33,635 bases of DNA from Kiloniellales bacterium. GTDB taxonomy: Bacteria; Pseudomonadota; Alphaproteobacteria; Kiloniellales; JAKSBE01. The notes beneath the pieces are model-generated. The model was not told the origin of the DNA and searched no databases. It was given only the letters and a program-made list of their open reading frames with translations. The stretch is taken from contig JANQGU010000357.1 in the NCBI GenBank assembly GCA_028282935.1, positions 1 to 33,635 on the forward strand, given 5' to 3'. This document shows, one piece after another, positions 22,171 to 25,548 of the stretch. Each line of letters begins with the position of its first letter. The stretch's first letter is position 1. The translations under genes and the position numbers were made by a program.

Positions 22171-22181
22171 ACCGGGTTCAG
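22167..22181. terminator. Palindrome spanning both stop codons of two convergent genes
   Basis: CTGAACC and GGTTCAG form a perfect 7-bp inverted repeat around one G. The TGA of the GNAT gene lies in the left arm, and the TGA of the ThDP gene (read as TCA) lies in the right arm. It is too tight for a free hairpin without opening the inner pairs, so a terminator role is tentative. Confidence 0.3.
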
Positions 22182-23863
22182 CCCGCCTGCGCCGCCGTCG
22201 CCGCGGCCCGGATCTCGCTCAGGCTCTGCCGTGGAGTCAGGGCCTCCGGGTCGATCCTCAGCTCGAGCAGGGCCGGCGTCCCGGCCGCCTCCGCCCGCTC
22301 GAAGGCCGCGGCGAAGTCCTCGGTGCGCTCGACGACCTCGCCGTGGGCGCCGTAGGCCCGGGCCAGGGCGGCGAAGTCCGGATTGACCAGATCGGTGCCC
22401 AGCACCCGGCCGGGGAACTCCCGCTCCTGGTGCATGCGGATGGTGCCGTACATGCCGTTGTTGATCACCAGGACGATGACGTTCAGGCGGTACTGCACCG
22501 CGGTCGCCAGCTCCTGGCCCGTCATCAGGAAGCAGCCGTCGCCGGCGAAGCAGACCGCCGGGCGGTCCGGCTGGGCGGCCTTGACGGCAATGGCCGCCGG
22601 CAGGCCGTAGCCCATGGAGCCGGAGGTCGGGCCGAGCTGGCTGCGGAAGGCGCCGTAGCGGAAGAAGCGGTGCAGCCAGACCGAGTAGTTGCCGGCGCCG
22701 TTGGTCAGGACCGCGTCCTCCGGCAGGTGCGCGCGCAGCCAGGCCACGACCTCGGCCATCTGCAGCTCGCCGGGGCAGGGCAAGGGCCGGCTCCACTCCA
22801 GGCAGTCGCGGTGCGCGGCCTCGACCTCGGCCGCGCGCGAGGGTCCCGGCGCGGCGTTGAGGCCGCGGGCGGCGGCCAGGAAGGCACGCGGGCTGGCGTG
22901 GATCGCCAGCTCCGGCTGGTAGACCCGGCCCAGCTCCTCCGCGCCCGGATGGACGTGGACCAGGCGCTGGCTCGGCCGGGGCGCCTCGATCAGGCTGTAG
23001 CCGCCGGTGGTGATCTCGCCCAGGCGGGCGCCCAGCACCAGCAGCAGGTCGGCGGCCTGGACTCGCGCCTTGAGCTTGGGATTGATGCCGATGCCGACGT
23101 CGCCGGCGTAGTTCGGATGGCCGTTGTCGATCAGGTCCTGACAGCGGAAGGCGGCGCCGACCGGCAGCGCCTGCACCTCGGCGAAGGCCCGCAGGTCCCT
23201 GGTCGCCTGCTCGTCCCAGGCACTGCCGCCGACCAGGAGGAAGGGCCGCTCGGCGCCGGACAGCAGCTCGGCCAGGCGGCTCATCTCGGCGCCGCCGGGA
23301 TGGGTCTCGACCCTCTGGTAGGGCGCCGGGTCGGCGACCTCGACCCGATCGGTCAGCATGTCCTCGGGCAGGGCCAGGACCACCGGGCCCGGGCGGCCCG
23401 AGGTCGCGGTGTGGAAGGCCCGGCTCAGGAATTCCGGAATCCGCGCTGCGTCGTCGATCTGGGCGACCCATTTCGCCTGCTCGCCGAACATGCGGCGATA
23501 GTCGATCTCCTGGAAGGCCTCGCGCTCGACGTGGCCGCGGGCGATCTGGCCGATGAAGAGGATCATCGGCGTCGAGTCCTGAAAGGCGATGTGCAGGCCG
23601 GCGCTGGCGTTGGTCGCGCCCGGCCCGCGGGTCACGAAGCAGATGCCCGGCTCGCCGGTCAGCTTGCCCTGGGCCTCGGCCATCATCGCGGCGCCGCCTT
23701 CCTGCCGGCAGACGGTGAAGGCGATCTCCGGCACGTCGTTCAGCGCATCCAGCACCGCCAGGTAGCTCTCGCCCGGCACCCCGTAGGCCCGGGTCACGCC
23801 GTGGAGCCTGAGCTGATCGACCAGCACCCTCGCGCCGCTGCGCGCGCTCTTTGCGGATGGCAC
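22178..23863 (-). CDS. ThDP-dependent enzyme of the acetolactate synthase-like family
   Basis: The 561-residue protein has the three-domain plan of the family. The N-terminal pyrimidine-binding domain has catalytic Glu55 (CRQEGGAAM). The central domain and the C-terminal pyrophosphate-binding domain follow, with GDG (441-443) and NN (468-469) as the ThDP motif. The sequence TRGPGATNASAGLHIAFQDS is typical of acetolactate synthase-like members. Whether it makes acetolactate is uncertain. No ilvH regulatory subunit or ilvC is nearby, so a catabolic role (glyoxylate carboligase-, sulfoacetaldehyde- or oxalyl-type) is equally possible. The GTG at 23863 has AGGAGG seven bases upstream. Confidence 0.85.
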   Translation of the reverse strand: MPSAKSARSGARVLVDQLRLHGVTRAYGVPGESYLAVLDALNDVPEIAFTVCRQEGGAAMMAEAQGKLTGEPGICFVTRGPGATNASAGLHIAFQDSTPMILFIGQIARGHVEREAFQEIDYRRMFGEQAKWVAQIDDAARIPEFLSRAFHTATSGRPGPVVLALPEDMLTDRVEVADPAPYQRVETHPGGAEMSRLAELLSGAERPFLLVGGSAWDEQATRDLRAFAEVQALPVGAAFRCQDLIDNGHPNYAGDVGIGINPKLKARVQAADLLLVLGARLGEITTGGYSLIEAPRPSQRLVHVHPGAEELGRVYQPELAIHASPRAFLAAARGLNAAPGPSRAAEVEAAHRDCLEWSRPLPCPGELQMAEVVAWLRAHLPEDAVLTNGAGNYSVWLHRFFRYGAFRSQLGPTSGSMGYGLPAAIAVKAAQPDRPAVCFAGDGCFLMTGQELATAVQYRLNVIVLVINNGMYGTIRMHQEREFPGRVLGTDLVNPDFAALARAYGAHGEVVERTEDFAAAFERAEAAGTPALLELRIDPEALTPRQSLSEIRAAATAAQAG

Positions 23864-23877
23864 TTCGCTTCCTCCTG

Positions 23878-23929
23878 TAGCGCAGATCCCGATCAGACGC
23901 CTTCGCGTCTGGCCGGGAGGAGTGCGCTA
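23878..23929. repeat. Intergenic palindromic element, copy 1
   Basis: A 52-bp hairpin-forming palindrome. The outer arms are TAGCGCA and TGCGCTA. The inner arms are TCCCG-AT-CAGACGC and GCGTCTG-GC-CGGGA around CTTC. It lies one base from the Shine-Dalgarno site of the ThDP gene, so it forms most of that gene's leader. Its minus strand is homologous to copy 2. Confidence 0.75.
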
Positions 23930-23941
23930 ATACATTCAAGT

Positions 23942-24003
23942 TAGGGCATTACATCCGGCCAGATGGATCGCATAGCGATTCCATCTGATCGGATAATGCC
24001 CTA
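23942..24003. repeat. Intergenic palindromic element, copy 2
   Basis: A 62-bp palindrome with outer arms TAGGGCATTA and TAATGCCCTA. Inside are TCCG-GC-CAGATGG and CCATCTG-AT-CGGA, and a terminal ATCGC-ATA-GCGAT hairpin. Its plus strand aligns with the minus strand of copy 1 through TAG-GCA, CCGGCCAGA and TCTGATCGG, so the two are inverted relatives of one family, 12 bases apart. Confidence 0.75.
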
Positions 24004-24101
24004 GACGACCGCCAGAGGCTTACGGAGAACGAGCCGCCTTGTCCACAGCCGCTTGCGCCCGGACCGGACGGCACCACATGCTGGAGGCGGAAAGCCAAGA
24101 A

Positions 24102-25073
24102 ATGGAACGTCCGAACCCCAGCATGGATCCGGGGGCATTGCGCCGGCATCGCCTGGGCAACCTGCTGCAGTCGCTGATCCTGATCGCCGGCATGGCCCTG
24201 CTGCTGGCGGCCTGCGGCTGGATCGTCGCCGGCTGGACCGGCGTCGCCGTGGCCGCGGTCCTGGGCGCCTTGTCCCTGGCGATCAGCGGCCGTCTGTCGC
24301 CCGGCCTCATGCTTCGGATGTTCCGGGCCCGGCACCTGACCCGACAGGCGCTGCCGGAGGCCGTCGACGCGGTCGCCATCCTGGCCCGCCGCGCCGGTCT
24401 GGAGCCGCCGCCCCGGCTCTACTACGTCGCCAGCCCCACTCTGAACGCCTTCTCCCTGGGCCGGGGCCGGGAGGCGGTGATCGCCGTGACCAGCGGCCTG
24501 CTGCAGGCCATGACCCTGCGCGAGCTGATCGCTATCCTGGCCCACGAGATCAGCCACATCCGGCACAACGACATCTGGGTCATGAGCCTGGCGGACGTGA
24601 TGACCCGGATGACCCGCAGCATGTCCTTCCTGGGCCTCTTGTTCCTGGTCCTGAACCTGCCCTTCGCCCTGGCCGGGGTCGCCCAGATCCCCTGGCTGCT
24701 GGTGCTGCTGCTCCTCCTCGCGCCGACCCTGGGCAGCCTGCTTCAGCTCGCCCTGTCGCGGACCCGCGAGTTCGAGGCCGACCTGGGGGCGGCCCGCCTG
24801 ACCGGCGATCCGGTCGGCCTGGCACAAGCCCTGGAGCGGCTGGAGCGCCGCCAGGGACGCTTCTGGGAGGACATCTTCCTGGGCAGCCGGCGGATTCCCG
24901 ATCCGTCGCTGCTGCGCAGCCATCCCAAGACCGAGGAGCGGATCCGGCGCCTGCTGGACCTGAGGGTCGAGACGCCGCCGTTCGAGACCCGGGACGGGGC
25001 GGTCCGGCCGCGCGCGCCGCTGCGCCCGACACCCGGCCGGCCGCGTCAGCGGATCACCGGGCTCTGGTACTAG
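24102..25073 (+). CDS. M48 family zinc metallopeptidase, HtpX-like
   Basis: The 323-residue membrane metalloprotease has two hydrophobic N-terminal segments (about residues 20-65), a cytoplasmic active site HEISH (His148, Glu149, His152), and a third zinc ligand probably Glu225 in REFEADLGAARL. A second hydrophobic region lies between (MSFLGLLFLVLNLPFALAG and on). This is the HtpX plan, a quality-control protease for inner-membrane proteins. It may differ from true HtpX, so no symbol is given. The ATG at 24102 follows GGAGG (about 15 bases) and GGAAAG. The ATG at 24078 would add eight residues. It is divergent from the ThDP gene across the palindromes. Confidence 0.85.
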   Translation: MERPNPSMDPGALRRHRLGNLLQSLILIAGMALLLAACGWIVAGWTGVAVAAVLGALSLAISGRLSPGLMLRMFRARHLTRQALPEAVDAVAILARRAGLEPPPRLYYVASPTLNAFSLGRGREAVIAVTSGLLQAMTLRELIAILAHEISHIRHNDIWVMSLADVMTRMTRSMSFLGLLFLVLNLPFALAGVAQIPWLLVLLLLLAPTLGSLLQLALSRTREFEADLGAARLTGDPVGLAQALERLERRQGRFWEDIFLGSRRIPDPSLLRSHPKTEERIRRLLDLRVETPPFETRDGAVRPRAPLRPTPGRPRQRITGLWY

Positions 25074-25365: not shown

Positions 25366-25548
25366 GGCGTACCTTCCTGGCTTCTGCCGACAGCGGTACG
25401 GCCTGACTTGGCCGTAAGAACATCGAAACCCTACGGCATTGCCCTTACGATGCAGTTAAGATGACCCTCGCAAAACCGCGTCGAGGAGCGAGCCCGAGGC
25501 GGATTTTCCATTTATATCAATGCCCTAAGTCTGGGGGGAGGAAGAGCT

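Follow-up and report, generated by a model that had tools for sequence, protein, structure and literature searches.

The window analyzed in this study is the whole contig of 33,635 nucleotides (C256) from the assembly of a Kiloniellales bacterium (G000), which is fragmented (5.2 Mb in 460 contigs) and 81% complete. Two divergently oriented genes frame the locus under study. On the minus strand, positions 22178 to 23863 encode a thiamine-diphosphate (ThDP) enzyme of 561 amino acids (TPP_enzyme N, M and C) with a GTG start at 23863 and the Shine-Dalgarno sequence AGGAGG at 23870 to 23875, and on the plus strand, positions 24039 to 25073 encode an M48-type, HtpX-like metalloprotease. The sequence between them at 23878 to 24003 comprises 126 bp, including a TA at each end and a core of 122 bp. 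Based on copies with common ends and on empty sites in congeners, it is annotated here as a putative complete two-hairpin, CIR-like MITE of the IS630 type.

Architecture of the element

An earlier note, made from the letters of this DNA, had described two homologous palindromes of 52 and 62 bp in inverted orientation with a 12-bp spacer, and their coordinates were confirmed: hairpin 1, delimited by folding, covariation and a covariance model, spans 23878 to 23929, the linker, which differs among copies, 23930 to 23941, and hairpin 2, which contains a bulged N and a GANTC, 23942 to 24003. Compared to shuffled sequences, fold stability reached z values of -5.0 and -5.7 for hairpin 1 and of -9.3 and -8.2 for hairpin 2, and for neither palindrome was it equaled by any of 200 shuffles. 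Searched with a covariance model built from hairpin 2, the minus strand yielded hairpin 1 at 36.5 bits (E 1.5e-7); the model of hairpin 1 yielded hairpin 2, again on the minus strand, at 55 bits (E 8e-12). Since each model finds the other palindrome on the opposite strand, the two are homologous and inverted. The co-variation of paired bases that had been read from the window alone was likewise found across the copies of the element, where two-sided changes occur in 7 of the 27 pairs of hairpin 2 and in 2 pairs of hairpin 1; for hairpin 2, 12 compensatory cells were counted versus 3.4 in shuffles, and none of 500 shuffles came up to this value. Missed by the earlier note was that both palindromes and the spacer together constitute a single repeat unit with exact ends. 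An Rfam search with the element yielded chance matches only.

The left TA (23878 to 23879), a presumed target duplication, stands in the context GTAG, with G at 23877 replacing the C of CTAG. It opens a left terminal repeat on the plus strand (23878 to 23907), TAGCGC-N4-CCCGATCAGACG, which resembles IS630 ends of the form TAGAGC-N4-TCCGATCAG. The right terminal repeat TAGGGCATTATCCGATCAGATGGAATCG, read on the minus strand (23976 to 24003), resembles the IS630 end TAGAGCATAATCCGATCAG, and the right TA with its following G (24002 to 24004) is assigned from flank statistics as one half of a CTAG target. Both outer ends are described by the pattern TAG[CG]GC-N4-CCGATCAG. A GATTC at 23977 to 23981 on the plus strand, i.e., a GANTC (CcrM) site, occupies bases 23–27 counted from the outer TA of hairpin 2. 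On the other side, hairpin 1 forms part of the ThDP leader, and no more than two bases separate its end from the AGGAGG, in line with the earlier note. The note had further regarded ten bases at 25519 as a remnant of the end of hairpin 2. This sequence, AATGCCCTAA, is indeed present there, yet its origin from the element is not supported: the orthologous stretch of the congener G002 reads AATAGCATAAA without any element-sized gap, so that point changes and chance suffice to account for it.

Copies, empty sites and target

The genome-wide search for copies, which had been set beforehand as the refuting test, revealed many further copies in the own genome as well as in a congener. In G000, about 17 full-length copies have both ends in common and are 79–96% identical to the copy of the window, and about 25 more are partial or rearranged. 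Among the candidates scored in G002, about 38 were full-length, while G001, the other congener, contained degraded copies only. The unit is short and has no transposase gene: a length of exactly 126 bp was found in 41 of 44 measured copies. GANTC is intact in 37 of 44, with a variable N. Two rearranged copies were also observed: at L028 (1501 to 1552), a single hybrid hairpin with CTAG at both ends joins the left half of hairpin 1 to the complement of hairpin 2's left arm, and at L015 (1501 to 1633), hairpin 2 is turned around with respect to hairpin 1.

In neither congener does the spacer between the ThDP and protease genes contain the element. The filled locus of the window reads CCTCCTG-TA, core, TA-GACGACC, versus CCTCCTC-TC-GACGACC in G002 and CCTCCTC-TT-GACGACC in G001, which amounts to a net gain of 124 bp, i.e., the 122-bp core and two bases. 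At a further locus (L005), G001 has a single TA within CTAG where the G000 copy is bordered by TA on both sides; two more empty sites read CTAA, and in G002 a CTAG within an older copy has taken up another copy (L067/L288). Out of 49 copies, 46 carry TA at the left and 41 at the right end, and C precedes the left TA and G follows the right TA in 42 copies each. These flanking bases together with the empty sites therefore identify the target as TA in CTAG. A CTAG preference of IS630 and the duplication of TA as the hallmark of this family are both documented (PMC2170065). Sequence alone would fit a TA duplicated on insertion as well as an element that brings one TA and lands beside another; the former appears to be the simpler reading, because the ends are symmetric and IS630 duplicates TA. 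The window copy is intergenic, and open frames across the joined sites were shorter than at random positions (median of 211 versus 273 codons, p 1e-5), a test that is blurred by the high GC content.

Insertion at the window locus is, judged from the two empty congener spacers, recent and lineage-specific. An old regulatory role at this position is thus unlikely, because the element is absent from both congeners; an effect on the expression of the ThDP gene is possible.

IS630-type elements with a GANTC at a fixed position

Elements of the IS630 type of about 1050 bp (DDE_3; NCBIfam IS630) were found in at least 13 genera within this order and class. They sit between CTAG, and both of their ends begin with TAGAGC (C|TA|GAGC). 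In all 16 distinct elements compared, exactly one of the two ends contains a GANTC at bases 23–27 from the TA. As the left end was assigned by the GANTC motif itself, the weight of this observation rests on all 16 having GANTC at one position and in one end. The four specified bases are invariant, N is A in 12, G in three and C in one, and the 16 preceding bases are diverse. One such element of the own genome (L081, 977 to 1898), which belongs to the GAGC group and is cut by a contig end, likewise has the site at offset 23, as GAATC in its left end.

Named plasmid records are in line with this: GANTC is located at offset 23 in nine of ten alphaproteobacterial relatives for which both ends were found, among them ISRm10-1 and ISRm2011-2. 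When the alphaproteobacterial elements of the ISRm10-1/ISRm2011-2 type compared here are pooled, 26 of 27 have one end with GANTC at bases 23–27. The IS630 element of Komagataeibacter (L358) has no GANTC at offset 23, and neither have relatives from Nostoc and Deinococcus, a small non-alphaproteobacterial control of two.

Similarity of repeat ends and IS630 ends

The same offset is found in CIR-like loci: of 65 that were readable, 63 have their GANTC at bases 23–27 counted from the outer TA. To compare sequences beyond this motif, repeat ends were aligned without gaps and anchored at TA against a set of IS630 ends. The mean best agreement was 15.0 of 24 bases versus 9.9 in shuffles (0 of 2000 as good), and it dropped when the ends were slid against each other. 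With the GANTC region excluded, 9.6 of 16 bases agreed versus 7.5 (again 0 of 2000), a result that holds for the group and not for every family singly. Particularly close pairs were the hairpin 1 end from Pelagibius and an IS of G055 (14 of 16, GANTC region excluded) as well as hairpin 2 of G006 and an IS of G013 (13 of 16).

For the element of the window, between 0 and 32 of 20,000 shuffles were as good as the actual ends overall, and the similarity to IS630 extends over TAGNGC and about 13 further bases. The right end, also among the clearest cases, agrees with the Komagataeibacter IS630 end at 12 of the 13 bases after TAGNGC (0 of 20,000 shuffles), over a column range picked after inspection, and the left end matches IS630 ends from Sphingomonas and G005 in register (18 of 20,000 shuffles as good). 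The own genome, at 81% completeness and in its fragmented state, yielded no IS630 element whose ends are nearly identical to those of the repeat; the two IS630 genes present there have different end sequences, and the GAGC-group elements of G000 and G002 continue with other bases after GAGC. The IS630 element at L082 was considered as a parent since it adjoins a repeat copy, but its ends (TGTTCTGATTCC) differ, and it has landed in the CTAG of the repeat.

Relation to known repeats

CIR elements (Chen and Shapiro 2003) are described in PMC2229807 as about 110 bp long and composed of two inverted-repeat arms and a linker; they are intergenic, alphaproteobacterial, terminate in TA and have a GANTC at or near one loop. 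The element of the window shares the two arms, the linker, the TA ends and the position of GANTC at or near one loop, but it measures 126 bp and forms a separate sequence family; likened to CIR by the described architecture, it is filed here as CIR-like. A 2007 review by Delihas entered the target duplication of CIR as a question mark and listed the mechanism of mobility as unknown (PMC2229807); empty sites, a TA/CTAG target and the IS630 link go beyond what was reviewed. ISRm10-1 and ISRm2011-2 from Sinorhizobium have TA|GAGC ends at a TA in CTAG and a GANTC at bases 23–27 of one end, but measure about 1050 bp and encode a two-frame transposase, whereas the window element is geneless and has C or G instead of A as fourth base. 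RUP of Streptococcus pneumoniae (the IS630-Spn1 MITE) is similarly an IS630-related MITE at TA, of about 107 bp (PMC2229807), but it is not two-hairpin, differs in sequence and host, and has no GANTC reported.

Two-hairpin repeats of this kind are not restricted to the genus. In 289 genomes sampled across the class, the model of hairpin 2 had matches in 16, and a pattern built around its GANTC core retrieved two-hairpin repeats bounded by CTAG on either side from Pelagibius, Kiloniellaceae, Ancalomicrobiaceae, Brevundimonas and others. Brevundimonas belongs to the family of Caulobacter, and its locus L194 displays the same two-hairpin architecture.

Origin of the element and weighing of alternatives

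Taken as a whole, the sequence evidence makes it quite likely that the element is a CIR-like, non-autonomous IS630 MITE which is moved in trans by an IS630 transposase of the ISRm10-1/ISRm2011-2 type. The earlier note had proposed a REP- or MITE-like family. Its MITE part stands, since the copies are numerous, the target is fixed, empty sites exist and the insertions are specific to lineages. The REP part would call for mobilization by a RAYT (Y1 tyrosine) transposase, and the own genome does contain two genes for REP-associated tyrosine transposases, with paired inverted palindromes in the window that look like a REPIN. Dispersed paired palindromes are common to both systems; ends, target and flanking transposase set them apart. 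Both RAYT genes are flanked by unrelated palindromes of their own, no copy of the window element is found near either, and the ends of the element are symmetric, lie within CTAG with TA on both sides and match IS630 ends, making a REP/REPIN origin highly improbable. The inverted repeats at the RAYT genes are located at 1424 to 1447 and 2141 to 2164 of L096 and at 1394 to 1426 and 2128 to 2160 of L099. TA at the ends could also stem from another family that targets TA or CTAG, as IS5-type families (IS427/IS1031/IS711-like) do. A MITE of such a family is nevertheless considered unlikely, as opposed by the in-register end match to IS630, the only ends compared, and by the common GANTC offset.

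That the sequence is rather a host structure, i.e., an RNA leader, an attenuator or a CcrM-dependent switch for the ThDP and protease genes, might be suggested by its position adjoining the ribosome site, its strong folding, the compensatory changes and the GANTC in the loop. This is made very unlikely by its absence from the corresponding spacer of either congener, the dispersal of copies over many unrelated loci and the lack of an Rfam match. The hybrid and rearranged copies (L028, L015) would also be compatible with an ancient intergenic repeat dispersed solely through recombination or gene conversion; four precise empty sites, the nested insertion and the common CTAG target leave almost no room for spread without transposition. 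Under the preferred reading of an IS630 MITE, the transposase left unnamed in the earlier note can be narrowed to putative partners, namely those elements of the IS630 family whose ends read C|TA|GAGC.

An IS630 transposase supplied in trans would recognize both outer ends and place the element into a TA within CTAG, with TA being duplicated. Each outer end would have been turned into half a hairpin, giving rise to the two-arm shape, and the right end would have retained the GANTC located at bases 23–27 of the parent IS. At the window locus, a recent insertion would have set hairpin 1 directly upstream of the ribosome site of the ThDP gene. The data establish the repeat family with its ends and target, the empty sites, the similarity of the ends, the GANTC offset and the occurrence of IS630 and CcrM genes in the genus. 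We infer that mobilization would proceed in trans, that it may be under CcrM control and that the ThDP gene may be affected in some way.

An ortholog of CcrM, with 6pbd as the nearest solved structure (E 1e-154), is encoded in the genus, and the GANTC in the element end is for this reason probably methylated. As the four specified bases are conserved while N is free, we hypothesize that methylation by CcrM could tie movement to the passage of the replication fork, with the hemimethylated state licensing transposition after replication. Control of IS10 transposition by Dam via methylation sensing, which serves as the analogy here, is established (PMC5371812), and no report of a CcrM counterpart was found in the open-access literature searched. 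In its general form, this hypothesis holds that an entire group of alphaproteobacterial IS630 transposons and their CIR-type MITEs carry a fixed CcrM site in one end through which hemimethylation licenses cell-cycle-timed transposition, and that the GANTC of CIR is a transposon control rather than a host regulatory site; it is put forward tentatively, as a possibility with somewhat less than even prospects.

Abundant in Alphaproteobacteria, repeats of the CIR type have been on record since 2003, with their movement and the purpose of their GANTC left open (PMC2229807). Empty sites, the TA/CTAG target and the similarity of ends all point to IS630, with whose ends the GANTC offset is shared, and this link and common offset suggest how this long-known class of repeats moves. 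A connection between IS630 and CIR was not found in the open-access literature searched; prior publication elsewhere is possible. Two open questions on CIR are now directly testable, namely whether they are moved by a transposase of the ISRm2011-2 type and whether they are controlled by CcrM methylation of one end.

Further repeats and insertions at repeat copies

A second two-hairpin family of about 105 bp, TAGAGC.../...TTTGATCTAG, has more than 35 matches in G001 (L334–L353) and a GANTC at offset 23. It is also present at the left flank of L293 in G002, and its terminal CTAG has in one case received a copy of the window family. Near position 3977 of L205, a close relative of the window element was detected on a contig labeled as Phycisphaeraceae; this might reflect a binning error or a transfer.

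Palindromic intergenic repeats of Alphaproteobacteria also include Bru-RS1 and Bru-RS2 of Brucella and RIME of Rhizobium, to which the element is likened by description, and Bru-RS repeats are landing sites of IS elements. The repeat copies studied here seem to act as such a landing site as well: other ISs have landed in the CTAG at their ends at L082 (1330 to 2510), L011, L021, L017, L298 and L311, and several of these start with TA-GTGT or GGTGTTTAGTCC, at least one of them belonging to the IS630 family.
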